Positions 6,958 to 63,897 of a stretch of 64,000 bases of DNA are shown here, piece after piece. This DNA comes from Halobacterium bonnevillei. Lineage in GTDB: Archaea; Halobacteriota; Halobacteria; Halobacteriales; Halobacteriaceae. The stretch covers positions 1-64,000 of the forward strand of contig NZ_WUUU01000003.1 in the NCBI RefSeq assembly GCF_009831555.1, read 5' to 3'. The notes under the pieces are model-generated. The model was not told the DNA's origin, did no database searches, and was given only the letters and a program-made list of their open reading frames with translations. How positions within the stretch are numbered: the first letter of the stretch is position 1; each line of letters begins with the position of its first letter. The position numbers and the translations under genes are program-made.

Positions 6958-9594
6958 GTGACAGAGGGTCCACATAGTCGGCCGGCCGACACGGTGCTGT
7001 CGGCCCAGGAAACGACCGCAGAGGGGTTGTCCGCCGAAGAGGCGGACCGACGGCTCGCCGAGCACGGCGAGAACGAAGTCGTCCGCGTGAGCGAACGCAC
7101 ACCGCTGGACATCTTCGTGGCGCAGTTCGACAGCGTCCTCATCTGGGTGCTGCTGGCCGCCGCTGCGATCTCGGTCTGGGCCGGCCACACGGTCGACGCC
7201 ATCCTCATTGCCGTCATCGTCGTCGCCAACGGCCTCTTCGGGTTCGTGCAGGATTACCGCGCCGAGCAGAGCCTCGAATCGCTCCGCGACCTGACGGCGC
7301 CGACGGCGACGGTGCGGCGGGACGGCAGCGCAGTCTCGGTCGACGCGAGTGAACTCGTCCCGGGGGACGTCATCGAACTGGAGAGCGGGGCCGTCGTCCC
7401 CGCGGACGCCCGACTGCTCGAGGAGACGGACCTCGAGGTCGACGAGGCGGCGCTCACGGGGGAGAGCGTGCCGGTGTCGAAGTCCCCGGAGCCGGTCGAC
7501 CCGGACGCACCGCTCGCGGAACACGCCAGTATGGTGTACAAGGGGACGAACGTGCTCCGCGGGCGGGCGACCGCCGTCGTGGCCGCGACGGGAATGGATA
7601 CTGAGGTCGGCGCAATCGCGGGGGAACTCGCGGCCGCAGCGGAGACACAGACGCCGCTCCAGCGAGAACTGGACCGCCTCGGCCGCCGACTGGGGTTCGG
7701 GGTACTGGCGCTTGCCGCACTGGTCGTGCCGCTCCTGTTGCTCCGTGATACGACGCCGCTCCAGGCCGCCTTGACTGCGGTGTCACTCGGCGTTGCTGCA
7801 GTTCCGGAGGGACTGCCGGCCGTCGTGACGCTGACGCTCGCGATCGGTGTGCGAGCCATGGCGGACGAGAACGCGCTCGTCCGTCGGCTGCCCGCCGTCG
7901 AGGCCCTGGGCTCCGTCGACGTCATCTGTACCGACAAGACCGGGACGCTCACCGAGGGACAGATGACCGTCAGCGAAGTGTGGGTGAACGACGACGTCGT
8001 GGACCTCGACGAGACGGCTGACGTCGCCACCGAGCGCTCACTCGACGAGCCCGCTGATGCGTCCGGCGAGCGCTCACTCGACGAACGCGTCGGGTTGTTG
8101 TTGCGGGCCGGCGCGCTCTGCAACGACGCGACGACCGACGAGGGCGACCCGACCGAGCAGGCGCTGGTCCGCGCGGCGACAGACCACGGATTCGACGTCC
8201 AGGCGCTCCGGGACCGCACCCCGCGAACTGACGAGATTCCCTTCTCGTCGGAATCGAAGTGGATGGCGACCGTCCACGACGACGTCGCGTACGTCAAGGG
8301 CGCACCGGAGGTCATTCTCTCGAAGGCATCGAAGATAGCGACGGCGGACGGGACGAGGGAACTCACGCCGGAGACCGCCGACCGCGTGCGTGACCAGGTC
8401 AACGCGTTCGCTGACGACGCCCTCCGCGTGCTGGCTGTCGGGTACGCCGAGGACGTCTCGGACGCCGACGACGTGGCAGACAACCTCGTGTTCGGCGGTC
8501 TGGTCGGACTGATCGACCCGCCGCGCAGGGAGGTCGCGGACGCGATCGCTGCGACCGGACGGGCCGGCATCGACGTGAAGATGGTCACCGGCGACAACGT
8601 CCGCACCGCCGCTGCGATTGCGGAGACGCTCGGGATGGGGCGGGCGGTGATGGAGGGCAACGACGTCGAACAGCTGGACGACGACGAACTCGGCGAGCGA
8701 GTCGAGTCCGTCGACGTTTTCGCTCGGACCGCGCCGGAACACAAGGTGCGAATCCTGCAGGCGCTCCAGGCGAACGGCCACGTGGTCGCGATGACCGGCG
8801 ACGGCGTCAACGACGCGCCGGCACTGAAGAACGCGGACATCGGCGTCGCAATGGGGGAACGCGGGACCGACGTCGCCCAGAACGCGAGCGACGTGGTGCT
8901 GCTTGACGACAACTACGCGACCATCGAGCGAGCCGTCGAGCGCGGCCGGGCCATCTTCGACAACGTCTGGAAGTTCGTCGCGTACCTGCTCAGCGCGAAC
9001 ATCGCGGAGGTCGCCATCGTGTTCCTGGCGTCGCTGTTCGGCTATCTCGTGTTGCCGGCGGTTCAGTTGCTGTGGATCAACCTACTCACGGACGGACTGC
9101 CCGCACTGGCGCTCGGAGCGGACCCGCAGAGCGGCGACGTGATGGACCGGCCGCCGCGAGACCCCGACCGCGGAATCGTCGACGGGCAGATGCTCGGCCT
9201 CATCGGGGGTGCGGGGAGCGTGTCGACGGTAGTCATGCTCGGGCTGTTGTTCTACACGCTCGACGGCTTGCCGGCCGTCACGCCGTACGTGATGACGATG
9301 GTGTTCACGGCGTTCGTCGCCCTCGAGTTCGAGAAGCTGTACGTGATCCGGTGGCTCCGGGAAACCCCGACGTTCTCGAATCCGTGGCTCGCGCTCTCGG
9401 TCGCCGGGTCGCTGCTGCTCCAGCTCGCCGTGCTGTACACGCCGCTGCGCCAGTACTTCGGGACGGTGTCGCTCGGGCTCGCGGACTGGGGGCTCGTCGC
9501 GGTCGTCCTCGCCGTCGCGCTACCGGGCTACGTGGCCGTCGTCGCCGCGATAAAGCGGTACCTCCCACGCGGCGGTAGTGGGGAAGCCAGTTGA
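6958..9594 (+). CDS. P2-type cation-transporting ATPase
   Basis: Membrane ATPase of 878 residues coupling ATP hydrolysis to cation transport. It has the N-terminal cation-ATPase domain, the actuator motif LTGESVPV, the phosphorylated Asp326 in CTDKTGTLT, a P-domain hinge [10 protein letters not shown], and the TM4 signature [10 protein letters not shown]6 reads [12 protein letters not shown], as in Ca2+- and Na+-ATPases of class P2A. The N-domain contains a short duplicated acidic insert ([18 protein letters not shown]). No heavy-metal-binding domain is present, so a P1B role is excluded. The start is a GTG. The exact ion (Ca2+, Mn2+, Na+) cannot be decided from sequence. Confidence 0.93.
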
Positions 9595-49017: not shown

Positions 49018-51414
49018 ATGGCACCAGACCTGACTGTCGTTACGACTGCCGTCGCGGTTCCCTTCGTCGCTGCGGTCCTCGCACCGCTGCTGTATCGGGT
49101 CCTCGGTGAACGGACTGGCTACGCGGGGGCCGCCGTCGCGGCGGCGAGTTTCGGACTGCTCGCGACGCAAGTCGGCAGTCACGGCACCGTCAGGAGTCCG
49201 TGGATCCCCGCGCTCGAGGTGGGCCTCCAGTTCACTATCGATGGGTGGGGACTCCTGTTCGCGCTCCTGGCCAGCGGCATCGGCGTCCTCGTGTTCGTCT
49301 ACTCGGCGCGGTACATGCACGGCGAGAGCGGCCTCGCGCGCTACTACGCGGCGCTACTGGCGTTCATGGGCTCGATACTCGGCGTCGCGCTCGCGTCGGA
49401 CCTCGTGTTCATCTTCGTGTTCTGGGAGCTGACGAGCCTCAGTTCGTTCGTGCTCATCGGCCACTACACCGAGGACGCCGAGTCGCGGTACTCGGCTCGG
49501 ATGGCGATGGTCGTGACCGTCGGCGGCGGCCTGTGCCTGCTCGCTGGCCTGCTCGTGCTCGCGGTGGCAGCGCGCGGGGCTCTCGGCGGCGTGACGTTCG
49601 ACCTGGCGGCGATGCTCGCGAACGACGAGGCGATGCGTGCCTCGCTGCGCGAGTCGGGGCTGTTCGTGCCGGCGCTCGCCCTGGTCGTCACGGCCGCGGC
49701 GGCCAAGTCCGCGCAGGTCCCGCTACACTTCTGGCTGCCGAACGCGATGGTGGCGCCGACGCCCGTCTCCGCGTTCCTCCATTCCGCGACGATGGTCAAG
49801 GTCGGCGTCTACTTCCTCGGACGCGTTCGACCACTGATGATGAGTCCGGAGTGGGTGTTGCTCGTCGCGACGCTGGGCCTGCTGACGATGACCGTCGGGG
49901 CGCTGCTGGCTGTGGCCGCGACCGACACCAAGGAGTTGCTCGCATACTCGACGGCGAGCCACCTCGGGCTGATGGTCGCGGGCTTCGGCTTCGACGTCGT
50001 GTACGGCGGCGAGGCCGGGACGTTCCACCTGCTCAATCACGCCCTGTTCAAGGCGCCGCTGTTCCTCGTCGCGGGAATCGTCGCCCACGAGGCCGGCACG
50101 CGTAATCTCGACAATCTCGGGGGACTGTGGCGGGAGCTCCCGATAACGGCTGCTATCACTGGGGTCGCCGCGTTGAGCATGGCCGGCATCCCGCCGTTCA
50201 ATGGCTTCTACTCGAAGGAACTGCTGTTCGAGGCGACCTACGAGGTTGCTCACGAGGCAGGCGGGCTCGCCTGGCTGTATCCGGGCGTGGCGACGGTCGC
50301 GAGCGTGTTCACCGTCGTGTACTCGGTGAAGTTCCTCGCGATGTTCGTCGGCGAGCGCCGAGCGCCAATCGCTGACATCCACCGGCCACCGCTGGCGCTC
50401 GTCGGACCCCCCGCCGCGCTGGCCACCGCAGCGGCCGTGGTCAGCGTCGCCCCCCAACTGGCCGTCGACGCCATCGTCCAGGGGGCCGTCGAAGCAACCG
50501 CCACCGGCAAAGCACACCTCGAAGTTGGGCTGCCGACGCACTTTTCGCCCCCTGTCGGGATGTCCGCCGTTGCAATCGTCGGCGGGCTCGCGACGTATCC
50601 GTTTACGGAGCGCCTCGCGGCGGGCATCGGACGGGGCGTCGATGCCCCGATTCCCGTGCGGCCCAGCGGATGGTACGACTGTGCCGTCTCGACGGCAACG
50701 ACGACCAGCGCCCGGTTCGGCCCGCTGGTCCACAACGGCCTCCTGCGGACGTACGTGTTCTGGGTGGCGGCGGCTGGGAGCGTTCTCGCGCTCGCTGGCT
50801 TCGCCGCTACCGCGGGGGTCCCAGAACTGGACGTAGTCGGCGTGCCGCTGGCCGTCACTGTCGTCCTTGTTGTCGCTGTCCTCGCCGGACTGGCGGTTGT
50901 GACTGCGTCGTCGCACGTTGCCGGCGTCCTGACGCTGGCGATTCTGGGCTTCATGATTGCCATCTTCTTCATCCTCGCGAGCGCGCCGGACCTGGCGCTC
51001 ACGCAACTGGTCGTCGAGACGCTCGTGCTCCTGTTGTTCCTGCTGGTCCTCCAGCGGTTGCCGTCGTTCTACGCGGACGTCCGACCGCTCGTGCTCGCCC
51101 GCGACGCGGTTCTGTCGATTCTGGTGGGCGCGATGGCGTTCGCGTCAGTCCTCCTGACGACACCCGGACCCGATGCCGACCCGTCGAGCGTCGCCGAGTA
51201 TTACACGGCGCAGGCGGTCCCGGGTGGTGGCGGGTCGAACGTCGTCAACGTCGTCCTCGTGGATTTCCGGGCGTTCGACACGCTGGGCGAGCTGCTGGTG
51301 GTCACGGTCGCCGCGATCGCCATCCTCGTGCTCGTGACCATGCGGATTCGTGGCGAGGAGGCCGTGACCGAGGGCGAGGAGGAACCGGTTTCCGACGGGG
51401 GTGACCTGCCGTGA
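49018..51414 (+). CDS. mnhA: Na+/H+ antiporter subunit A (MnhA/MrpA)
   Basis: 798 residues, the largest subunit of the multi-subunit Mrp antiporter. It has many membrane helices. The central NADH-quinone-oxidoreductase-like proton channel domain (about residues 120-410) contains WELTSLSSFVLIGHY and KSAQVPLHFWLPNAM, with a buried Lys. The C-terminal part (about 620-780) has the MrpA/MbhE domain DLALTQLVVETLVLLLF and VVNVVLVDFRAFDTLGE. The first gene of a seven-gene operon; start ATG at 49018. Confidence 0.94.
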   Translation: MAPDLTVVTTAVAVPFVAAVLAPLLYRVLGERTGYAGAAVAAASFGLLATQVGSHGTVRSPWIPALEVGLQFTIDGWGLLFALLASGIGVLVFVYSARYMHGESGLARYYAALLAFMGSILGVALASDLVFIFVFWELTSLSSFVLIGHYTEDAESRYSARMAMVVTVGGGLCLLAGLLVLAVAARGALGGVTFDLAAMLANDEAMRASLRESGLFVPALALVVTAAAAKSAQVPLHFWLPNAMVAPTPVSAFLHSATMVKVGVYFLGRVRPLMMSPEWVLLVATLGLLTMTVGALLAVAATDTKELLAYSTASHLGLMVAGFGFDVVYGGEAGTFHLLNHALFKAPLFLVAGIVAHEAGTRNLDNLGGLWRELPITAAITGVAALSMAGIPPFNGFYSKELLFEATYEVAHEAGGLAWLYPGVATVASVFTVVYSVKFLAMFVGERRAPIADIHRPPLALVGPPAALATAAAVVSVAPQLAVDAIVQGAVEATATGKAHLEVGLPTHFSPPVGMSAVAIVGGLATYPFTERLAAGIGRGVDAPIPVRPSGWYDCAVSTATTTSARFGPLVHNGLLRTYVFWVAAAGSVLALAGFAATAGVPELDVVGVPLAVTVVLVVAVLAGLAVVTASSHVAGVLTLAILGFMIAIFFILASAPDLALTQLVVETLVLLLFLLVLQRLPSFYADVRPLVLARDAVLSILVGAMAFASVLLTTPGPDADPSSVAEYYTAQAVPGGGGSNVVNVVLVDFRAFDTLGELLVVTVAAIAILVLVTMRIRGEEAVTEGEEEPVSDGGDLP

Positions 51415-51875
51415 CGACGACGATCATGCGGACGACGGCACGGGTGACCGTCCCCATCGTCCTCGTCCTCTCGATTTCGCTGTTCCTGCAGGGCCACAAC
51501 CTACCCGGCGGCGGGTTCATCGGCGGCGTCCTCACCACGGCCGCGCTGGTGCTCATCTACGTCGCCTACGACCTCGACTACCTCGAGTCGGGGGTGCTCG
51601 GCCAGGAGGTCGAGTCCGGCACCAGTATTTTCGAGCACCGCACGGTCCTCGCCTACCGCCGGACGCTACTGTTGGGTCTGCTGGTCGTCTTCGGTAGCGG
51701 GGTCGCCGGGTTCCTGGTCGGCGACCCGTTCCTGACCCAGACGTACGTCCACCTCGAGGGCGTCCCGATCTATCACGAGGTCGAGCTCGCGAGCGCGCTC
51801 GTGTTCGACCTGGGCGTGTTCCTCGTCGTGGTCGGTAGCCTCCTGACGATCGTTTCGGTGGTGAGCGCCGAATGA
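51411..51875 (+). CDS. mnhB: Na+/H+ antiporter subunit B (MnhB/MrpB)
   Basis: 154 residues; GTG start overlapping the mnhA stop. Four membrane helices and the family motif LFLQGHNLPGGGFIGGVL are present. In some organisms this domain is fused to subunit A; here it is separate. It is part of the membrane arm of the Mrp complex. Confidence 0.92.
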   Translation: MTTTIMRTTARVTVPIVLVLSISLFLQGHNLPGGGFIGGVLTTAALVLIYVAYDLDYLESGVLGQEVESGTSIFEHRTVLAYRRTLLLGLLVVFGSGVAGFLVGDPFLTQTYVHLEGVPIYHEVELASALVFDLGVFLVVVGSLLTIVSVVSAE

Positions 51876-51921
51876 CTCGGCGCACAGAGTCGTCGGCTTT
51901 CCGAAGTGGGGCTGGTACCCG

Positions 51922-52266
51922 ATGAGCGTCGCCCTTGCAGTCGCCGTCGGCGGGTTGTTCGCCGTCGGGACCTTCCTGCTGTTGCGGCGGGACCTGGTAC
52001 GGGTCGTCTTCGGGCTCGCTGTCGTGTCGCAGGCGACGTTCGTCTACCTGATCGCGATGGGCGGCGTCGCGGAGGGCGCCCGGGAACTCGTGCCCGTCCT
52101 CGACACGCACGGCGGCGGGGTTCCCGAGATCGCCGACCCAGTGGTGCAGGCACTCGTCCTGACGGCTATCGTCATCAGCTTCGGGACGACCGCGCTGGCG
52201 CTGGTCCTGTCGTATCGCGCCTACGAGGAGAACGAGACCATCGACGTCACGGAGTGGGTTCGATGA
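51922..52266 (+). CDS. mnhC: Na+/H+ antiporter subunit C (MnhC/MrpC)
   Basis: 114 residues, homologous to NuoK of complex I, with three membrane helices. It shows RRDLVRVVFGLAVVSQATFVYLIAMG and DPVVQALVLTAIVISFGTTALAL, including the helix carrying the conserved acidic and polar residues. The stop overlaps the mnhD start. Confidence 0.92.
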   Translation: MSVALAVAVGGLFAVGTFLLLRRDLVRVVFGLAVVSQATFVYLIAMGGVAEGARELVPVLDTHGGGVPEIADPVVQALVLTAIVISFGTTALALVLSYRAYEENETIDVTEWVR

Positions 52267-53870
52267 GCCGGCTCGTCATCGCGCCGCTGCTAGTCGTGCT
52301 CGGGACCGCCGTGCTCACGCTGGCGCTCGGCCGGCGGCCACAGCTACAGCGCGCGACGAGCGTGGCCGGCGTCGTCGGCTACGTCGCGGCTGTGTCCGTT
52401 GCCGTCTGGACGTTCGTCCTCGCGCCAGCGGCGCCCGGCGCGGCGACCTACCAGGTGGGTGACTGGCCCGCCCCCTTCGGAATCACACTCGTGCTCGACG
52501 GGCTGTCGGCGTTCATGCTGACCATCGCCGCGGCCGTCGGGCTCGCTTCGATGCTGTTCGCGGTCCGGTACGTCACCCCCGAGAACCAGCGCGTCTACTA
52601 CCACCCGCTGTTCCACCTGCTCCTGGTGGGCGTGACGGGCGCGTTCCTCACCGGCGACCTGTTCAATTTGTTCGTCTGGTTCGAAGTGATGTTGATCGTC
52701 AGTTACGTGTTCGTCGCGTTCTACGGCACCGACTACGCCACTGCGGCGTCGTTCCGGTACCTGGTGTTGAACCTGTTCGGGAGCGCGCTCATGCTCGTGG
52801 CCGTCGGCGGCCTGTACGCCACCACAGGCACGCTGAACATGGCGGACATGGCTCGGCGGCTGGCCAATCCCGCCGCGTACGGCGTCGACCCAGCACCCGT
52901 CGTCGGGCTGTCGGCTCTGCTGCTTGCGGTGTTCGCGCTGAAGGCCGGGCTCGTCCCGTTCCAGTTCTGGGTGCCCGCCGCCTACACCGCCGCGCCGCCG
53001 CCGATCACTGCGATGTTCGCGGGCGTCACGAAGAAGGTCGGCATGTACGCCGTCGTCCGCCTCTACTTCACGGTCTTCGCGGGCGTGCCAGTCTCCGTCG
53101 ACCTGGCCGGCTCCCTCGGTGCTTCGCCGCTGGCCTTCCTCGCACCGGTGTTGGCAGCGATGGGAATCGCGAGCATACTCGTCGGCGGGTTCGGCGCAGT
53201 CGGCCAGGACCGACTCGAGGGCGTGTTCGCGTACTCGAGCGTCGGCCAGGTCGGCTTCATCGCCCTCCCCATCGCCGTCGCCGCGGCGGCCGACCCAACG
53301 GGGTCGCTGCGCGGCGTCGCCATCGCTGCTGCCCTGGTGTTCGCGCTCCACCACGCGCTCGTGAAGGGGCTGCTCTTCCTGTCGTCGGCCGCGGTCCAGG
53401 ACGCGACCGGGACGGACAGCCTGCGAGACCTCGGCGGCGTCGCTGGTCACTCGCCAGTGCTCTCGGGAGCGGTCTTCGTCGCCCTCCTCTCGCTGATCGG
53501 GCTCCCGCCGTTGACTGGATTCTTCGGGAAGTTCCTCGCGTTCGACACGGCGGTCCGGGGACTCGCGGTCGACCTCGGCGTGCTGTCGACACTCGCGTTG
53601 GTCGCGTTGCTCCTCGGCGCCGTACTCACGATTCTGTACGCGACGCGGGTGTGGGTCGACGGCTTCTGGGGGCCCGAGACGCCGGCGGTCGAGACCTCGA
53701 CTGTCGACCAGGGACAGGTCGCAGTCCTCGTCGCGCTCGCGGCCGCCGTCGTGCTCGTTGGCGTCGGATTCGACCCGGTGTACCGGTTCGCCGAGACGGC
53801 CGCGAGCGCGGCCATCGACACCGAAGCATACGTCGACGTCGTGGGCCTCGACGGGGGTGGCGGCGCGTGA
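52263..53870 (+). CDS. mnhD: Na+/H+ antiporter subunit D (MnhD/MrpD)
   Basis: 535 residues, a NuoN/NuoL-like membrane protein with about 14 helices and the proton-channel domain: WFEVMLIVSYVFVAFYG, KAGLVPFQFWVPAAYTAAPP and HHALVKGLLFLSSAAVQDATG, including two conserved Lys. ATG 52263 overlaps mnhC (ATGA). It is the second antiporter-like subunit of the Mrp complex. Confidence 0.94.
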   Translation: MSRLVIAPLLVVLGTAVLTLALGRRPQLQRATSVAGVVGYVAAVSVAVWTFVLAPAAPGAATYQVGDWPAPFGITLVLDGLSAFMLTIAAAVGLASMLFAVRYVTPENQRVYYHPLFHLLLVGVTGAFLTGDLFNLFVWFEVMLIVSYVFVAFYGTDYATAASFRYLVLNLFGSALMLVAVGGLYATTGTLNMADMARRLANPAAYGVDPAPVVGLSALLLAVFALKAGLVPFQFWVPAAYTAAPPPITAMFAGVTKKVGMYAVVRLYFTVFAGVPVSVDLAGSLGASPLAFLAPVLAAMGIASILVGGFGAVGQDRLEGVFAYSSVGQVGFIALPIAVAAAADPTGSLRGVAIAAALVFALHHALVKGLLFLSSAAVQDATGTDSLRDLGGVAGHSPVLSGAVFVALLSLIGLPPLTGFFGKFLAFDTAVRGLAVDLGVLSTLALVALLLGAVLTILYATRVWVDGFWGPETPAVETSTVDQGQVAVLVALAAAVVLVGVGFDPVYRFAETAASAAIDTEAYVDVVGLDGGGGA

Positions 53871-54562
53871 CCCGGAGTTGGCCGGTCGCGGGCGTCGTCT
53901 TCGGCGTCACCTGGGTGTTCGTCCACGGGCCACCGCTCAGCCCCGCCCCGCTCGCCGGGTCGCTGCTGCTCGGATTCGCGGTCGGCTTCCCCATGGCCTA
54001 CGTCTTCCGACGCCTCTACGGGGATACCGTCGACCTCGGCCGTTCGGTTCGCGGCGTCCCCTACATGGTGCTGTACACGCTGGCGTTCGTCCGCGAGGCA
54101 GTCGTCGCCAGTCTCGACGTCACGTACCGCGTGCTCGCGCCCTCCGGCCCGGTCGAACCCGAGGTAATTCTCATTCCACTGCGGGTGCAGTCGGACCTCG
54201 GCGTGACCACCATCGCCAACAGCATCACCATGACGCCCGGCTCGCTCACACTCGACTACGACTCCGAGGAGAACGCACTGTACGTCCACGTCATCGACGG
54301 GAGCGACCCGGTGGACATCGTCGACCCGATCCGCGTCTGGGAGAACTACGCGCTCGTCATCTTCGACGAGGAACTGTCGCCGGACGACCCCGCGCCGGAC
54401 TTCGCAGTCTACCCGCCAGACCAGACCCATCCCGTGCTCGAGCAGGCCGCACCTGACAGCGAGACAGCGGGAGAGACGGATTCGGAGGCACCGGTGGAGT
54501 CGGAGGCCGAGACTGGACCGCCGACCGAGGAGTCGAGTGGGGGTGACGGCGATGGCCGTTGA
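53867..54562 (+). CDS. mnhE: Na+/H+ antiporter subunit E (MnhE/MrpE)
   Basis: 231 residues from a GTG overlapping the mnhD stop (GTGA). It has an N-terminal pair of hydrophobic helices and the motif ITMTPGSLTLDYDSEENALYVHVIDG that defines MrpE. A C-terminal extension of about 60 residues is highly acidic (Glu/Asp/Pro/Ser/Thr) and not found in bacterial MrpE, a haloarchaeal addition facing the cytoplasm. Confidence 0.92.
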   Translation: MTRSWPVAGVVFGVTWVFVHGPPLSPAPLAGSLLLGFAVGFPMAYVFRRLYGDTVDLGRSVRGVPYMVLYTLAFVREAVVASLDVTYRVLAPSGPVEPEVILIPLRVQSDLGVTTIANSITMTPGSLTLDYDSEENALYVHVIDGSDPVDIVDPIRVWENYALVIFDEELSPDDPAPDFAVYPPDQTHPVLEQAAPDSETAGETDSEAPVESEAETGPPTEESSGGDGDGR

Positions 54563-54845
54563 GGGGACGGTCGCGCTGGTCGTCGACGCCGCGATCGTCC
54601 TCGTGGCCCTGCTGAATCTGCTGTGCGGGTACCGCGTGGTCCGTGGACCGACGGTTCCCGACCGGGTGGTCGCGCTGGACGCAATCGCGACGAACGTCGT
54701 CGCCATCGCCGTCCTGTTCGCGATCAAGACCGACCGAGGCCTCTTCGTGACCGTCAGCCTCGTCCTCGCCATCATCGCGTTCCTCTCGACGGTCGCGGTC
54801 GCCAAGTTCGTCACCGAAGGCGACATCATCGTCACACAGGACTGA
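54552..54845 (+). CDS. mnhF: Na+/H+ antiporter subunit F (MnhF/MrpF)
   Basis: 97 residues, three membrane helices. The MrpF block YRVVRGPTVPDRVVALDAIATN is followed by FLSTVAVAKFVTEGD. ATG 54552 overlaps the end of mnhE by 11 nt; an upstream GTG at 54537 is possible. Confidence 0.92.
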   Translation: MAVEGTVALVVDAAIVLVALLNLLCGYRVVRGPTVPDRVVALDAIATNVVAIAVLFAIKTDRGLFVTVSLVLAIIAFLSTVAVAKFVTEGDIIVTQD

Positions 54846-54917
54846 ACCCAGCATGTATCACGAACACTCACGACAGGCCGTGCGCGCGAGTCGACGGAAC
54901 AGGGGAGGTGGCCGCTG

Positions 54918-55259
54918 ATGGCCGACCTGGAAGCGCTCCGGACCGTACTTGTCGTCGGCTTCGTCGTCGTCGGAGCGTTCTTCCTCACGGTCGGGACAAT
55001 CGGCCTGCTGCGACTGCCGAACGTGTACAACCGCATGCACGCGACGAGCAAGCCGGCGACCATCGGCACAGTCTCGGTCTTCCTCGCCGGGTTCGCGTAC
55101 TTCGGGCCCGGTGGCGCCGGCCTCCCGTCCCTGATCGGGATCGTGTTCCTGTTCCTGACGGTGCCGACCGGCGCGCACATGATCTCGCGAGCAGCAGAAC
55201 GGACCGGCGTCCCGTTCCTGGGGTCAGTGACGTGGCCGGGCAAGTCCGACGACGAGTAG
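54918..55259 (+). CDS. mnhG: Na+/H+ antiporter subunit G (MnhG/MrpG)
   Basis: 113 residues, three membrane helices. The MrpG signature LLRLPNVYNRMHATSKPATIG is intact. It is the last gene of the Mrp operon, 72 nt after mnhF. With all seven subunits present, a functional Na+(or K+)/H+ antiporter that helps the cell keep a low internal Na+ is expected. Confidence 0.93.
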   Translation: MADLEALRTVLVVGFVVVGAFFLTVGTIGLLRLPNVYNRMHATSKPATIGTVSVFLAGFAYFGPGGAGLPSLIGIVFLFLTVPTGAHMISRAAERTGVPFLGSVTWPGKSDDE

Positions 55260-56286: not shown

Positions 56287-57666
56287 TTACACTGCAGAGT
56301 AATCTGCCGTTTTCCGCTTGTCCTCGAAGTACGGTGCCGGACCGACCGTTGCGCGGATCTCGGTCTGCGAATGTGGTTCGACTCTCGGATTCCTGGACTC
56401 CCCGGACTCCCCCCATACGATGGTAACCTCCGTCCCGGGGTCGCTGTACGCTGGGTCGATACTACAGAGCGAGAACATGCGCCGCTCGAAGTAGAGGTAC
56501 CTGGTGTTGTTCGCAACTCCCACGTCCTCGCCGTCTTTCCGCACCCGGTCGTTCTGTGTCAACGACCACTCCGGAACGGGCAGGTTCGTGTACCGCTTCG
56601 GCTCCGCGTCCTCGAACAGGTGTCCGACGAGGGCGTTCGTGTCTGCCCGATTCCAGACGAGCGTTACCTTGGTTCCGGGCGGATCGTCGGCTTGGGCTTC
56701 GAGCGCGTCCCGTCCGACGAACTCGTGGTCGAACTCGATGAACCGGTCGTGACCGGCACCGAACGGCGTCAGATAGTGCTCTGTGACGTCCGTCGGTTCG
56801 ACGCTTCCAGCGACGGTGAGCGCGCCTTCGAAGCTGTCCGCGTCGAGCCACTCCCGGTACGCTCGCATCTCGTCGCCGAAAATCGCTGGAAGGGGAACCG
56901 ACATCCAGGCGGCGGGAATGACGCCGCCGGCGTACGCTTTCCGTCCGACGCGAGTGATTCCGTGGTCCTCGCCGGCGTCCATGAGTGCGCCAAGGACGGC
57001 GTCAGCGTGCTCCCACGGACCGAACAGCTCGAACCCTGGCTCGTTTATCATCCCGTGGCGGAGCGCGTTGACCTCGCAGCCAGCAACCGAGACCGGTTCG
57101 AAATTGAAGAACGAGATGTCCGGGAGGGGTTCGTCGAGGGCGCGTCGGATAACGGCGAGCGCGCTGGGGCCCTGTACCTGGTATCTGAAGTCTCTGGGGT
57201 CCCCGTCACGAACTCCGCTGTGCTCGTTGCGCGTCGTGGTCACGTCGTAGTCCCCGGTCTCCGCGTTGTACTGGATCCAGTTGATGGGCCCGTATCCGAC
57301 GAGGTTGAACGCGTTCTCGGCGAGGCGAAACAGAATGCCGTCACCGATGAGGTAGCCGTTCGGGTTGCAGGCGACGAACTGCTTGGCCTCGCCCCGCTGG
57401 AATCCCTCGAAGTCGTTGGCGCCGAAGTCCTCGAAGAGGTCGAGCGCGTCGGGGCCTTCCACCCGGAGGTCAGTCATGTGATGGGACAGGTCCGAGACCG
57501 CACAGCTGTCGACCCACGCTGACTGTTCTTCCCGCCAGTTCGTGAATTCGGGTGGGACGTCCTCGAACAGCCGGAGGTGGCCGGAATCCGCGTGCGGCCC
57601 GACGGTCTGGAGGAACTCGAGTGGCGATTCGTACTCCCGTAGCACGTCTTGAAGGCTCTGTGTCAT
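56287..57666 (-). CDS. LigM-like GcvT-superfamily protein (putative THF-dependent O-demethylase), copy 1
   Basis: 459 residues of the GcvT/DmdA/LigM superfamily, which transfer a methyl group to tetrahydrofolate. The arrangement is closer to LigM (vanillate/3-O-methylgallate demethylase) than to GcvT: PPEFTNWREEQSAWVDSC, SHHMTDLRVEGPDALDLF, GYLIGDGILF, RYQVQGPSALAVIRRAL, FFNFEPVSVAG and LRHGMINEPGFELFGPWE, with the C-terminal beta-barrel (about 320-450: FIEFDHEFVGRDALEA, YLYFERRMFSLCSID). The comparison is from memory of LigM. It is predicted to make 5-methyl-THF from a methyl ether or related methyl donor. It lies 119 nt after the MetF-like gene on the same strand. Confidence 0.75.
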   Translation of the reverse strand: MTQSLQDVLREYESPLEFLQTVGPHADSGHLRLFEDVPPEFTNWREEQSAWVDSCAVSDLSHHMTDLRVEGPDALDLFEDFGANDFEGFQRGEAKQFVACNPNGYLIGDGILFRLAENAFNLVGYGPINWIQYNAETGDYDVTTTRNEHSGVRDGDPRDFRYQVQGPSALAVIRRALDEPLPDISFFNFEPVSVAGCEVNALRHGMINEPGFELFGPWEHADAVLGALMDAGEDHGITRVGRKAYAGGVIPAAWMSVPLPAIFGDEMRAYREWLDADSFEGALTVAGSVEPTDVTEHYLTPFGAGHDRFIEFDHEFVGRDALEAQADDPPGTKVTLVWNRADTNALVGHLFEDAEPKRYTNLPVPEWSLTQNDRVRKDGEDVGVANNTRYLYFERRMFSLCSIDPAYSDPGTEVTIVWGESGESRNPRVEPHSQTEIRATVGPAPYFEDKRKTADYSAV

Positions 57667-57785
57667 TGTGGCTGCGTACCCCGCTCACAGACAGAGGGGG
57701 AAACTACTTAGTTCTAGTTCGGGACTGCTGCAAGCGTCGTTCTGACCGTCACGCAGTCGGTGTCGACGGTCTGTGACGGGGCGTA

Positions 57786-58649
57786 TCAGACTGACCGAAG
57801 TCGCTGACGGCGCCAGGATTCTGTATCCGGGACCTGATTGAACGTGTAGATGTGGAGGCCCGCGAACCCGTACTCGGGGTCGTTCACGTACGGTGCGAGC
57901 CCGTCGACGAGATCGTCCGGTTCGTACTTGCCGCGCGAGCCGACGAACTGCTTGATGAACCCCAGGATCCCACTCGTTTTCTTCAAGAAGCGAACGGAGT
58001 CCCCCACGCCGACTTTTTGCGAGATGCCGATCAGTTTCTGGTATTTCATCACTCCGGGAATTCCGACCTCGATGGGGAGTTCGATTCCACGATTGCGAAT
58101 CGTCTCAGTCCACTCGACGATTGCGTCCGGGTCGTAGCACAGCTGGGTCGAGATGTACGTGGCGTGTGGGGCCTTCTTCGCCATCGATTCGGCGAGCGTC
58201 TCGTCGGAGAGAAAGCCGTGCCCCTCGGGATACCCCGTGATTCCGACGTCCTGGAAGTCGTACTCGAGTTCGTCGAGTGCCCGCAGGAGCTGGTAGGCCG
58301 AGTCGAACTTCCCGACTGGTTCTTCGAGGTCACCCCCCGGAACGAAGATGTCGGTGACGCCGACGCCGCGGAGCCGCTCGGAGATCGACGCGAGGTGTTG
58401 CTCGTCTTCCACGTACCGAGCGGCGATGTGCGGGACGACCTCGTAGCCCCGTTCCGCTGCCCGTTCGGCCCAGTCGATGGTCGCATCGAGGTCGAGCGTG
58501 GGCGACGCCGTGATGGTGATTGTAGCACCGTCGGGCAGGTGGTCGAGCTGGTCGCCGAAGCTGTCGAACGGCATCAGCTCGTAGCGGGGATTGTCGAGTA
58601 GTGCCGATTCAGCATCCGATTTCGTCGCCGAGCGTGCTGTCGTTAACAT
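57786..58649 (-). CDS. Methylenetetrahydrofolate reductase-like protein (MetF)
   Basis: 287 residues of the MTHFR (beta/alpha)8 barrel family, shorter than MetF plus accessory domains but normal for the catalytic barrel. Matches include VVPHIAARYVEDEQHL, FVPGGDLEEP (the Asp equivalent of the GD in RGD), VGITGYPEGHGFL, THATYISTQLCYD-like TQ region, and a C-terminal HIYTFNQVPDTESWR. The FEFFPP block of E. coli MetF, which holds the catalytic Glu28, is replaced by ITITASPTLDLD, so the mechanism or direction may differ. It lies between the two LigM-like genes, and its role is probably to turn the 5-methyl-THF they make into methylene-THF. Confidence 0.8.
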   Translation of the reverse strand: MLTTARSATKSDAESALLDNPRYELMPFDSFGDQLDHLPDGATITITASPTLDLDATIDWAERAAERGYEVVPHIAARYVEDEQHLASISERLRGVGVTDIFVPGGDLEEPVGKFDSAYQLLRALDELEYDFQDVGITGYPEGHGFLSDETLAESMAKKAPHATYISTQLCYDPDAIVEWTETIRNRGIELPIEVGIPGVMKYQKLIGISQKVGVGDSVRFLKKTSGILGFIKQFVGSRGKYEPDDLVDGLAPYVNDPEYGFAGLHIYTFNQVPDTESWRRQRLRSV

Positions 58650-58762
58650 TGGTCTGGGCGGTCGTTTTGGCGGTCAGTGGACTGGCGCTATGTCCCGTCC
58701 GCGCGTTCCGTCCGGGCCCGGTCCGAAGCGATGGGTCCGGGTTCGAAGACGGACAGTAGTTG

Positions 58763-58774
58763 TATATATTTTGG
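58763..58774 (-). promoter_or_regulatory. BRE/TATA promoter of the MetF-like gene
   Basis: On the minus strand CCAAAATATATA, about 115 nt before the MetF ATG. The transcript would have a leader of about 90 nt. The sequence matches the promoter of the second LigM-like gene. Confidence 0.5.
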
Positions 58775-58913
58775 CCCGGCGAGCCAGCCGGACCGGCCGG
58801 AGTACACAACGCCAGACACGAGTGCAATGCTACCGTGGCGAATCGAACCGCGGCGCTACTACGGGGCGATTCGCGTTCCCGAGGCCCGGCCGTACCTACC
58901 GTTGGCCGTCGGA

Positions 58914-60269
58914 TTACCGCTTGTCCTTGCTGTAGGGTGCATTCGCCACAGTGGCCGTGATCTCCGTCTGTACGTGGCGTTCGACCTGCGGGTTCTCCGT
59001 GTCCTCAGGATCGCCCCACGTGAGTGTGACTTCCGTGCCCGGTTCGCTGTACTCGGTGTCGATTACGGCGAGCGAGAGCAGCTCTCGCTTGTTGTAGATG
59101 TAGCTCTTGTCCGTCGAGACGCCGATCGTCTCCCCGTCCTTCGAAACCTCGTCGTAGTGACACGCGGCAGAACGGGGGTGGGGCAGGTCCATGAACTGGT
59201 ACGTGTCGCCGTCCGTGAACAGTGAGGCGAACACGTCGACGACGTCTTCGCCGTCCCACACGAGCGTGACTTTTTCACGCTCGGCGTCGCCGAGTTCGTC
59301 CTTCAGTGGTTCGCTGCCGACGAAATCGTGCTCGAAGTCGATGATGTGACCGTATCCCAGCTCCGGCGGCGTGAAGTAGTAGTCCGTGATGTCGTCGGAG
59401 TCGTAACTCCCGCCGATCGAGAGCAGTCCCTGCCCGACGTTCAGCCACTCGCGGTAGTCCGTCATGCCCTCGTCGTAGATGGCCGGCACGACGAGCGGAA
59501 TCCAGCCGAGAATCGCGTTCGGGGTCTGGTAGCTCTCGCCGCCGAGGCGCGTGATGCCGTAGTCTTCGCCGGCCTCCAGAACGGCCGTTCGAACTGCCTC
59601 GCCTTCCTCGTAGGGGCCCCAGAACTCGAATCCGGGTTCGCCGGCCATCCCGTGACGAAGCAGATTGACTTCGTGGCCATCGATGGAGACCGCATCGAAG
59701 TTGAAGAAGCCGAGGTCTGGGAGTGGCCCGTCAGTCGCGTCCTCCATGATTTTGATTGCTTCGGGGCCCTGGACCTGGAAGCGGAAGTTGTTCGGGTCCT
59801 CGCCGGTCTGGACCGGGCGACTCTGGATCTCGCCGGAGACGTCGTAGTCCCCCGTCTCGATGTTGTACTGGAGCCAGTTGTGTGCGGCGGCACCGCCGAC
59901 GCTCAGGAATTCGTCGTCGCCGAGGTGGAACCAGATCGCGTCACCGATGAAGTATCCGTTCGGATTCGCGACGACGAGCTGTTTCGCCGTGCCTGGCTCC
60001 GAGTTCTCGAAGTTGTTGACCGCGTGGTCCTTGTAGAGTTCGAGCGCGTCCGGTCCCTCGACGTAATGGTCCGTCATGTGGTAGGACTGGTCGGCGAACG
60101 CGCAGTTCTCCCGCCAGGAGCGCTGCTCCTCGATCCAGTGCGTGAACTCGTCGGGAACCTTCGTGAACTCGCCAACCCCGAGGTCGCGCATCAATTCGAC
60201 TGGGTCTCCCGCCGCGTTCACCGCCTCCTCCATACTGTCGCTGAAAGACCAGGCTCTATCGCTACTCAT
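58914..60269 (-). CDS. LigM-like GcvT-superfamily protein (putative THF-dependent O-demethylase), copy 2
   Basis: 451 residues, a paralogue of copy 1 with the same blocks: PDEFTHWIEEQRSWRENC, SYHMTDHYVEGPDALELY, GYFIGDAIWFHLG, FRFQVQGPEAIKIM, FFNFDAVSIDG, LRHGMAGEPGFEFWGPYEEG and the C-terminal FEHDFVGSEPL. It has RHGMAGEPG, closer to LigM than copy 1's RHGMINEPG. I chose ATG 60269 because the TATA box at 60303-60310 lies about 37 nt before it, while the upstream ATG 60296 would be almost inside the promoter. It precedes the MetF-like gene by 264 bp, and each has its own promoter. Confidence 0.78.
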   Translation of the reverse strand: MSSDRAWSFSDSMEEAVNAAGDPVELMRDLGVGEFTKVPDEFTHWIEEQRSWRENCAFADQSYHMTDHYVEGPDALELYKDHAVNNFENSEPGTAKQLVVANPNGYFIGDAIWFHLGDDEFLSVGGAAAHNWLQYNIETGDYDVSGEIQSRPVQTGEDPNNFRFQVQGPEAIKIMEDATDGPLPDLGFFNFDAVSIDGHEVNLLRHGMAGEPGFEFWGPYEEGEAVRTAVLEAGEDYGITRLGGESYQTPNAILGWIPLVVPAIYDEGMTDYREWLNVGQGLLSIGGSYDSDDITDYYFTPPELGYGHIIDFEHDFVGSEPLKDELGDAEREKVTLVWDGEDVVDVFASLFTDGDTYQFMDLPHPRSAACHYDEVSKDGETIGVSTDKSYIYNKRELLSLAVIDTEYSEPGTEVTLTWGDPEDTENPQVERHVQTEITATVANAPYSKDKR

Positions 60270-61113: not shown

Positions 61114-62670
61114 ATGCACTCGAGTTCAACCGTTGAGGTCCCGTCCCTGCGGGAGCTATCGAGTATCGCTGCGAACAACACCCCGGACAAAGTCGCGTTC
61201 GGGGAGGGGGTGGACGGCCCGACAGTCACGTGGGCGGAGTTCGACGAGCAGAGCGTCCAGGCGGCGAACGCGTTCGGAGACTCGATCGGATTGGGCGACC
61301 GGGTCGTCTTCCTCTGCGAGAACTCCATCGAACACACGACGCTGTGGAACGGCGCACTCAAAGCGGGCTGCGTCGTGTCGAATCTCCACGTGCGGGCGGC
61401 GCCAAACACGATCGCGCATTGCATCGACGCCTGCAAACCCCGCGCACTCGTCGTCGACGAATCGACCAGTGAACTGTTCGAAGACCGAGTGGCAGACAAA
61501 CTCTCGACGACGCTGGACGTCGTCGTCAACACCGGTGCGACGCAAACACGACGGCAGCAATCCTTCGAGACGTTCGTCGACGGTCATTCGACGACACCCC
61601 CCGACGTCCGGACGATGGAGGACGACACGGCCGCGATCATGTGGACGTCGGGGACGACGGGCGAGCCGAAGGGGTGGTGTTTCACGAACCGAGGGCTCTA
61701 TCTGCGGGCGAGCACGCTCGTCGACGTGCTGGAAGTGAACAGGACGACCCGACAGCCGCACGTGTTCACTCCCTCGTTTGCGGCGTGGTACTCCGTGATG
61801 CTGCCCGCCCTTCTGACGGGCGCCACGACGTACTTCCTCGACACCTGGGACCCCGGAGAGTATCTCCAGATGATCGAGACGCACGAACTCACGACGGCGC
61901 TGCTCGTGCCGACGATGTGGCGGGAGATTCTCAACATGGGTTCGTTCGACGAGTACGACCTCGATTCGTTGCAGGCGATCACGTCCGCCGGGGAGGTCCT
62001 CGACGCGACCACGCTGGAACGACTGCGGGAGAGCGTCTGCGGGGTCGTGAAGAATTCCTACGCAGCGACCGAGGCCTACTCGACGGTGATGAACAACGCC
62101 GAGTTGGAGGCGGGTCGCATCGACAGCGTCGGAAAGCCGGTCCCGGGGGTCCAGATCCGGATCGTCGACCCGGGTGGGACCTACGAGGACGTCCGGGACG
62201 TCGGGGAAGTCGGCGAGATCGCGGTTCGTGCACCGGACGCGCCGGTGTGGGCCTGGGGCCGGACGGAGAAGACCGAGCAGTCGTTCGAGGATGGCTGGTG
62301 GTACTCCGGCGACCTCGGGTATCGCGACGAGGACGACTTCATCTACCTGGAGGGGCGAAGCGACTTTCAGATCATGTCGAAGGGAATCAAGGTGTACCCA
62401 ACCCCGATCGAGGAGCGACTCAACGCCCACCCCGACGTCGAGGAGTCCGCCGTCGTCGGCGTGGAAGACGACGAATACGGTGAGAAAGTTACGGCGTACG
62501 TCTACGCGCCGGATTCGGACGTGAGCGCGGACACGCTGGACGAGTGGTGTCTGGAAAGCGACGACCTCGCTCGCATGGAGCGACCCCGCTCCTACCACTT
62601 CGTCGAGGACCCGCTGCCGCGGACGGCGACTGGGAAACTGGACCGTATGAGCGCGAAGGGCGACGAATAG
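61114..62670 (+). CDS. AMP-dependent acyl-CoA synthetase/ligase
   Basis: 518 residues of the ANL superfamily. ATP-binding P-loop MWTSGTTGEPKG (Thr near 178), WYSGDLGYRDEDDFIYLEGR with the conserved hinge Asp, SDFQIMSKGIKVYPTPIEERL and the catalytic Lys in PRTATGKLDRM are present. It activates a carboxylic acid to its CoA thioester; fatty, aromatic or benzoate-type substrates cannot be separated by sequence. ATG 61114 was chosen from the TATA position. It is divergent from the thioesterase and probably belongs to the same pathway as the LigM-like proteins. Confidence 0.93.
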   Translation: MHSSSTVEVPSLRELSSIAANNTPDKVAFGEGVDGPTVTWAEFDEQSVQAANAFGDSIGLGDRVVFLCENSIEHTTLWNGALKAGCVVSNLHVRAAPNTIAHCIDACKPRALVVDESTSELFEDRVADKLSTTLDVVVNTGATQTRRQQSFETFVDGHSTTPPDVRTMEDDTAAIMWTSGTTGEPKGWCFTNRGLYLRASTLVDVLEVNRTTRQPHVFTPSFAAWYSVMLPALLTGATTYFLDTWDPGEYLQMIETHELTTALLVPTMWREILNMGSFDEYDLDSLQAITSAGEVLDATTLERLRESVCGVVKNSYAATEAYSTVMNNAELEAGRIDSVGKPVPGVQIRIVDPGGTYEDVRDVGEVGEIAVRAPDAPVWAWGRTEKTEQSFEDGWWYSGDLGYRDEDDFIYLEGRSDFQIMSKGIKVYPTPIEERLNAHPDVEESAVVGVEDDEYGEKVTAYVYAPDSDVSADTLDEWCLESDDLARMERPRSYHFVEDPLPRTATGKLDRMSAKGDE

Positions 62671-63123: not shown

Positions 63124-63897
63124 TCACTGGCCGTACTGGTAGTTGACAGTGATAGTGTTCTGGACCTCCTGGAGCTGGTCGAGGAGGTCAGCTTGATACG
63201 CTTCGTCCTGGATGCGTTTCGTTGGGACGACGATCCCAATCGAACCGAGCACCTCCGCTTCGACCGTAATTGGAACGGCAATCATTCCCATGCCGATTAC
63301 CTGTTCGTCCCAGTCCACGGCGTATCCGTCCGCCCGGATTTCGGCGAGTTCGGCTTTCAACCGCCCTGGGTCAGTTATCGTGTGCTGGGTTCTGGCTTCG
63401 AGCCCCCGCTGGTCGAGGATCTCGTCGATGCGGTCTTCCGAGAGTTTCGCGAGAATCGCTTTCCCCGTCGCGACGGTGTGTAGCGGCGTCGACGCTCCCG
63501 GATAGGTGCCGAGGCTGAGCGCCTGGTCACCACCTTCCTGGTGGAGAATCACTCCGACTCCTCCCATTTCGACCGTCAGGCCGATCAGCTCGCCAGTGTT
63601 CTCCGAGAGGCGCCGCATCTCGGGTTGTGCAAGCTGGAACAGCCGATTTCTGTACCGCATCCGCCCCGCAATCGTGAGGAAGTAGGCGCTGATGGTGTAC
63701 TCGCCTTTCTCCTTGTTGACGAACTTCGTGTCCGTGAGCGATTCCAGATAGTCGTACACCGTGCTGTTGGGCACGTCGAGCTCCGCAGCAATTTCAGTCG
63801 GGCCAGCCCCGTCGAGTTTCCACAGCAGGTCCAGGATCTCGAAGGCGCGCGTGACGGTGGTGAGTGACGTCATGATTTGGGTGACAGTACCAGCCAT
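63124..63897 (-). CDS. IclR-family transcriptional regulator
   Basis: 257 residues. An N-terminal winged helix (about 10-75: TRAFEILDLLWKLDGAG, recognition helix LDVPNSTVYDYLESLTD) is followed by the effector domain (about 90-250: YRNRLFQLAQPEMRRLSENTG, TPLHTVATGKAILAKLSEDRI, GMGMIAVPITVEAEVLG). It is the likely regulator of the acyl-CoA ligase, thioesterase and LigM/MetF genes. The palindrome at 63911-63927 lies 14-30 nt before the start, suggesting autoregulation. ATG 63897 was chosen; ATG 63873 (MTSLTTV) is the alternative. Confidence 0.93.
   Translation of the reverse strand: MAGTVTQIMTSLTTVTRAFEILDLLWKLDGAGPTEIAAELDVPNSTVYDYLESLTDTKFVNKEKGEYTISAYFLTIAGRMRYRNRLFQLAQPEMRRLSENTGELIGLTVEMGGVGVILHQEGGDQALSLGTYPGASTPLHTVATGKAILAKLSEDRIDEILDQRGLEARTQHTITDPGRLKAELAEIRADGYAVDWDEQVIGMGMIAVPITVEAEVLGSIGIVVPTKRIQDEAYQADLLDQLQEVQNTITVNYQYGQ

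Follow-up and report, generated by a model that had tools for sequence, protein, structure and literature searches.

A gene cluster of Halobacterium bonnevillei (contig NZ_WUUU01000003.1) that includes positions 56,287 to 60,269 is probably, judging from gene content, the demethylation and coenzyme A (CoA)-activation end of a haloarchaeal catabolic system for a methoxylated aromatic acid of the ortho-methoxyphenol type (as in vanillate, homovanillate, or ferulate). The window, the whole stretch of DNA analyzed, covers the first 64,000 of the 83,404 bases of this contig (contig C3), and the functional unit reaches beyond it to about 77 kb. An earlier note, made from the letters of the window alone, had described two long LigM-type proteins of the GcvT superfamily flanking a MetF-like gene. 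We found all three open reading frames intact at the coordinates below and supported by profile and Protein Data Bank (PDB) matches, with the LigM-type motifs that the note had quoted present in the window proteins. The thioesterase, acyl-CoA ligase, and IclR regulator that it had placed beside them are likewise where it had put them.

56287..57666, minus strand: LigM-B, predicted LigM/DesA-family tetrahydrofolate (THF)-dependent O-demethylase, 459 amino acids (DesA profile, 470 bits)
57786..58649, minus strand: MetF-like flavoprotein of the MTHFR family, 287 amino acids
58914..60269, minus strand: LigM-A, predicted LigM/DesA-family THF-dependent O-demethylase by profile, fold, tree, and residues, 451 amino acids
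60481..60882, minus strand: 4HBT-fold thioesterase (Pfam 4HBT_2)
61114..62670, plus strand: AMP-forming acyl/aryl-CoA ligase (AMP-binding, E = 1e-64), strict partner of LigM-A
63124..63897, minus strand: IclR-family regulator (IclR_C, E = 4e-33)

LigM-A and LigM-B group with the vanillate/syringate O-demethylases, apart from GcvT, DmdA, and the dimethylglycine enzymes. The two proteins matched the NCBIfam DesA profile at E = 4.8e-141 and 9.5e-139 and the LigM profile at E = 1.3e-116 and 9.9e-123, versus about 1e-21 for GcvT, 1e-9 to 1e-11 for DmdA, and 1e-9 to 1e-13 for sarcosine oxidase. Among PDB sequences, the sole strong relative of LigM-A was LigM (E = 6e-105), with GcvT next at 7.5e-13. 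An AlphaFold model of LigM-A, of moderate quality (predicted local distance difference test score of 68.7, with the stretch 247-266 below 50), matched the fold of LigM best (5x1i; E = 5.5e-44; template-modeling score of 0.79), followed by GcvT (5.5e-29) and then by dimethylglycine dehydrogenase (DMGDH) and DmdA (5.9e-23). A tree of 89 rows, built by a quick method with GcvT and DmdA rows as the outgroup, split the LigM/DesA rows from the GcvT and DmdA-like rows of the same genome with a Shimodaira-Hasegawa-like approximate likelihood ratio (SH-aLRT) support of 99; DMGDH was set apart outside the tree, by profile and fold. Together, profile, tree, and fold reject glycine-cleavage, dimethylsulfoniopropionate (DMSP), and dimethylglycine identities for the window LigM proteins.

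Every bacterial row in this tree, including LigM of Sphingobium SYK-6, falls in a single group (support of 98). The archaeal copies are split over several old clades, although some branches are long and the rooting among these clades is uncertain. LigM-A clusters with a copy on contig C86 and with orthologs from other haloarchaeal families rather than with that of Halarchaeum, a member of its own family, a pattern that suggests gene transfer within the haloarchaea. LigM-B falls with copies from Halobellus captivus and Halobellus clavatus, and LigM-C, a third copy 1.3 kb past the window, with one from Halobellus rufus. We rejected a recent LigM-A/LigM-B duplication because the two occupy different old clades and LigM-A has its recent paralogue in the C86 copy instead. 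The earlier note had allowed its two paralogues either separate substrates or a two-step demethylation; their age and separate clades make separate substrates likelier than a fixed two-step pair.

The positions matching LigM Tyr247, Glu215, His60, and Trp256 are kept in LigM-A, LigM-B, and LigM-C and are near-invariant in an alignment of 112 family rows, with the Tyr247 position kept in 110/112 and Glu215 in all 112. Neither finding that the earlier note had named as contrary to its reading was made: the copies lie outside the GcvT/DmdA rows instead of inside GcvT or sarcosine/dimethylglycine clades, and the folate and catalytic positions are kept. We presume that Glu215, His60, and Trp256 are folate or active-site positions, the catalytic tyrosine being the one residue of the four with literature backing. 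Conservation of this methyl-transferring tyrosine is the published check for such enzymes (PMC9296663).

The MetF-like protein matched the Pfam MTHFR family (methylenetetrahydrofolate reductase; E = 4.6e-13). Of the solved structures, the closest in sequence is 7xg9/7xlf (E = 1.9e-36; next, 1.6e-9), which we take to be the SYK-6 MTHFR that partners LigM, the search output naming no organism. The protein lies far under the cutoff of the canonical MetF equivalog TIGR00676 (55.6 versus 293.7 bits). Archaeal MetF proteins form one clade (100/100), and their closest relatives are actinobacterial MetF proteins adjoining LigM. The SYK-6 MTHFR reportedly works in the reverse direction, oxidizing the 5-methyl-THF that LigM makes (PMC12585457; PMC13001107). 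We propose from these sequence relationships that the haloarchaeal MetF-like protein may similarly oxidize 5-methyl-THF to 5,10-methylene-THF.

Co-occurrence links these genes to aromatic catabolism. We surveyed 392 genomes of the order (the haloarchaea), scoring only the best few candidates per genome and using cutoffs of our own choosing for the dioxygenase (at least 61% identity) and the CoA ligase (E ≤ 1e-150). The LigM-A clade (67 to 100% identity) was present in 10/392 genomes (G000, G093, G117, G129, G165, G253, G317, G351, G354, and G380), which span six genera and five families. Orthologs of an extradiol-type dioxygenase encoded past the window were confined to the same 10 genomes, with remaining matches at 48% identity or less, and so was the CoA ligase. 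The probability of one such exact match by chance is about 5e-20, or about 1e-9 with genera as units. Genome G215 holds a 66% identical LigM of a sister clade without the module genes, and LigM was found in none of the 12 other sampled members of the genus. Since the distributions of LigM-A, the CoA ligase, and the dioxygenase coincide genome for genome, an aromatic methoxy acid is favored and DMSP or betaine disfavored, and by this gene content an aromatic methoxy acid would be by far the likeliest substrate. Perfect co-occurrence with a catechol 2,3-dioxygenase (C23O)-family enzyme also narrows the methyl donor, which the earlier note had left open, probably to an aryl methyl ether. MetF occurred in 99/392 genomes, among them all but one of the 17 that carry LigM (16/17; Fisher P = 1.4e-9).

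All 10 clusters hold LigM-A, the CoA ligase, MetF, the dioxygenase, and an HpaI aldolase. A small VOC protein and the thioesterase were each called in 9/10, IclR in 8/10, and the Liv transporter, PurU, and a 2-hydroxyacid dehydrogenase in 7/10 each; the aminodeoxychorismate synthase genes pabA/pabB (folate precursor) are present in five to six. In most clusters, LigM-A is immediately preceded by the CoA ligase gene in the same orientation, and some clusters have genes for formate dehydrogenase nearby. On contig C3, the following features lie past the window:

between the window end and LigM-C: second IclR regulator
65255-66607: LigM-C
66768-70425: LivG/F/H/M (Liv-type ATP-binding cassette [ABC] transporter)
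70505-70879: small VOC protein
71071-72318: substrate-binding protein
72456-73223: HpaI-type aldolase
73365-74297: C23O-family type I extradiol dioxygenase
74393-75898: aldehyde dehydrogenase
to 77052: PurU
80470-81837: DmdA-like protein

From these genes we infer a route, including its substrate, the direction of MetF, the order of steps, and each catalytic activity. The Liv-type ABC transporter would import the methoxyaromatic acid, and LigM-A (with LigM-B and LigM-C for related substrates) would move its O-methyl group to THF, yielding a catechol and 5-methyl-THF. MetF would convert the latter to 5,10-methylene-THF, from which FolD and PurU may carry the one-carbon (C1) unit to formate, for oxidation to CO2 by formate dehydrogenase, unless it enters biosynthesis. 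Somewhere along this route, the CoA ligase and thioesterase would activate the acid and release it. The extradiol-type dioxygenase could then open the ring, aldehyde dehydrogenase and the HpaI-type aldolase could break the product down to central metabolites, and the IclR regulators would control expression. The earlier suggestion of archaeal THF-dependent demethylation paired with MetF, with the acid activated to CoA, is supported by this predicted gene set.

Several observations weigh against this pathway. Both window LigM proteins fall short of the equivalog cutoffs of NF047633 (DesA; 470/463 versus 800 bits) and NF047885 (LigM; 390/410 versus 580 bits). At the Arg122 position, which we presume to be a substrate carboxylate contact, the LigM-A clade has Gly, Ala, or Ser (Gly in LigM-A itself), LigM-B has Tyr, and LigM-C has Lys; the bacterial relatives that we checked have Arg or His. 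LigM-B also has Leu at the Gln57 position. The alignment thus indicates that the function class is retained, with a substrate end of the pocket that differs from that of SYK-6 LigM. Because the missing Arg/His122 indicates another substrate, we do not claim the narrower name vanillate/syringate demethylase. The module dioxygenase (248 bits to catechol 2,3-dioxygenase and 201 bits to HpaD) keeps the iron ligands H/H/E (2-His-1-carboxylate), Tyr257, and His248, but all 10 orthologs have Ile at the catalytic His200/199 position of HPCD/XylE-type enzymes, and the product of the module enzyme cannot be taken for granted. Given this loss and that of Arg122 in LigM-A, free vanillate should not be assumed as the substrate either. 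The core module yielded no obvious candidate for an oxalocrotonate tautomerase, a hydratase, or a decarboxylase, and the source genome is a 362-contig assembly. Finally, MetF is present in 83/375 genomes without a LigM match. This distribution implies other MetF roles too; a MetF specific to LigM was rejected on its overall frequency.

Two side observations concern these residues. In bacterial LigM rows, Arg122 tends to pair with Arg147 and His122 with Asn147, a possible substrate-specificity switch. Dioxygenase paralogues in two of the 10 genomes keep the His (L213:5874-6836 and L216:2733-3689).

The strict CoA ligase partnership and the missing Arg122 make CoA-ester demethylation a real, if clearly secondary, possibility. 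The ligase would act first, LigM-A would then demethylate an aryl-CoA thioester, a longer-side-chain acid, or an acid without a bound ring carboxylate, and the thioesterase would free the catechol acid. Gly, Ala, or Ser at the Arg122 position would drop the carboxylate contact, if we are right about its role, and widen the pocket. Combined with nonstandard catechol cleavage by the His200-less dioxygenase, such a CoA-dependent route would be unlike any bacterial LigM pathway, and we consider it possible but unlikely. Against it, LigM-A retains Arg147, the ligase and thioesterase may act elsewhere in the route, and the ligase in the window is divergent in orientation from LigM-A. We are not aware of a LigM that uses a CoA ester as its substrate.

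It is less probable still that LigM and MetF chiefly feed C1 units to biosynthesis, with ring catabolism secondary. This role has a precedent in SYK-6, a strain without glycine cleavage (PMC12585457), and folate-synthesis genes do sit in the clusters. However, the H. bonnevillei genome has GcvT, GcvH, and formyl-THF synthetase, so a further C1 source should not be needed, and PurU and the nearby formate dehydrogenase genes favor dissimilation.

We regard as improbable, more so than C1 supply, a nonaromatic methyl donor, in which the LigM-like enzymes would act on DMSP, betaine, sarcosine, or another S- or N-methyl compound. Enzymes for such compounds share the GcvT superfamily with LigM, and the genome also encodes two DmdA-like proteins and one DMGDH-like protein. 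These paralogues are themselves candidates for DMSP- and betaine-type compounds, the DmdA-like ones lying outside the LigM clade; the DmdA and SoxA profiles score just 35 to 50 bits or so on the window LigM proteins; and LigM-A co-occurs without exception with a ring-cleavage dioxygenase and a CoA ligase. That the window proteins are simply T-proteins of glycine cleavage, or else decayed relics, as their sole Pfam domain, GCV_T, might suggest, is refuted by the LigM tree, profile, and fold results, by the conservation of catalytic residues and synteny across families, and by a separate true GcvT with GcvH on contig C15, and we give it next to no credence.

The preferred reading, catabolism of a methoxylated aromatic acid, is set within a genome that holds nine GcvT-superfamily proteins: the true GcvT with GcvH, one DMGDH-like, two DmdA-like, and five LigM-like proteins. 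The earlier note was right about two LigM paralogues in the window, but the genome-wide count is five (A and B in the window, C past it, D on contig C86, and a divergent E on contig C44). The window LigM proteins neither group with GcvT nor belong to the GcvT-GcvH pair, and the presence of GcvT, DmdA-like, and DMGDH-like proteins means that glycine cleavage and DMSP- and dimethylglycine-type roles already have candidates. LigM-E (8157-9485 of locus L014) and its G073 ortholog (L067:9480-10808) have lost Tyr247, His60, and Trp256, which, with an FAA-hydrolase-family neighbor, makes a changed function likely. The DmdA-like paralogues lie on contigs C3 and C12. The one on C3 scores 230 bits to the DMSP demethylase model (cutoff, 410) and is near a bacterio-opsin-activator-like regulator. 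On C12, a second MetF-like gene lies near the DmdA-like gene and FolD (C12:3518-6970), and this contig also holds Fhs, a FolC-FolP fusion, the DMGDH-like protein, and formate dehydrogenase; haloarchaeal MetF may also work with THF methyltransferases other than LigM.

The guanine-plus-cytosine fraction is 0.55 to 0.65 across the 55- to 80-kb stretch versus mostly 0.65 to 0.68 upstream, in line with acquisition of an island. Directly upstream of it, the window appears by sequence reading to encode an Mrp/Mnh-type multisubunit cation antiporter operon (49018-55259). The closest NCBIfam models to the IclR regulator in the window are BhcR and then PcaR/PcaU/PobR. A separate Halobellus rufus locus (L086, NZ_BBJO01000038.1) places LigM-C orthologs beside C23O, aldehyde dehydrogenase, UbiD decarboxylase, and an alpha/beta hydrolase, a predicted gene set of the kind expected for a vanillate-like acid; its LigM genes number two, and Amidohydro_2 and IclR are also present.

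We found no description of a haloarchaeal LigM, vanillate demethylation, or THF-dependent O-demethylation in the open-access papers that we searched, in which archaeal demethylation of lignin-type aromatics is so far only anaerobic corrinoid chemistry. Methermicoccus, Archaeoglobus (Mto), and Bathyarchaeia also remove methyl groups from methoxyaromatics, but without the LigM family. These systems are corrinoid-protein based, multicomponent, and anaerobic and pass the methyl group to tetrahydromethanopterin/coenzyme M (PMC8630106); corrinoid-based archaeal O-demethylation is also the subject of PMC8359953 and PMC10989822. If our reading is true, aerobic lignin-monomer catabolism would span two domains and include saturated brine among its settings, and a role would be suggested for MetF, which about one in four haloarchaeal genomes encodes. 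The module is present in type strains in culture, making the proposal testable at once; carrier strains include Halobellus clavatus, Halarchaeum rubridurum, and a Halostagnicola sp.

Relative to HpaD, XylE, HpaE, and HpaI meta-cleavage, the module has the same iron ligands and distal Tyr/His and colocated aldehyde dehydrogenase and HpaI-type aldolase genes, but its dioxygenase has Ile for His200/199, and HpaG/HpaH-type steps were not found in the core module. A LigM-MetF-PurU-FolD tandem recurs in actinobacteria (Amycolatopsis, Nocardia, and Saccharopolyspora loci L099, L106, and L095) as the same C1 module, with MetF 38 to 43% identical and two LigM copies per locus. Its LigM proteins, however, are 47 to 49% identical and fall in a separate bacterial clade, and at these loci we detected no counterpart of the archaeal-type CoA ligase, C23O, or aldolase. 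The SYK-6 LigM/DesA and MTHFR system shares with the haloarchaeal cluster the enzyme family, the Tyr247-type active site, the expected THF acceptor, and a metF paired with ligM that feeds aromatic ring cleavage. The haloarchaeal LigM is about 40% identical to LigM and lacks Arg122, its MetF is about 32% identical to the 7xg9 sequence, and the cluster has a CoA ligase and a thioesterase of its own, along with IclR regulators, PurU, and folate-synthesis genes. Ring opening would proceed by a type I (VOC) extradiol-type enzyme, unlike that in SYK-6, which presumably uses LigAB/DesZ. Bacteria are thus already known to have both this enzyme family and the pairing of LigM with MetF, and by these comparisons the haloarchaeal version is very probably a new archaeal variant.

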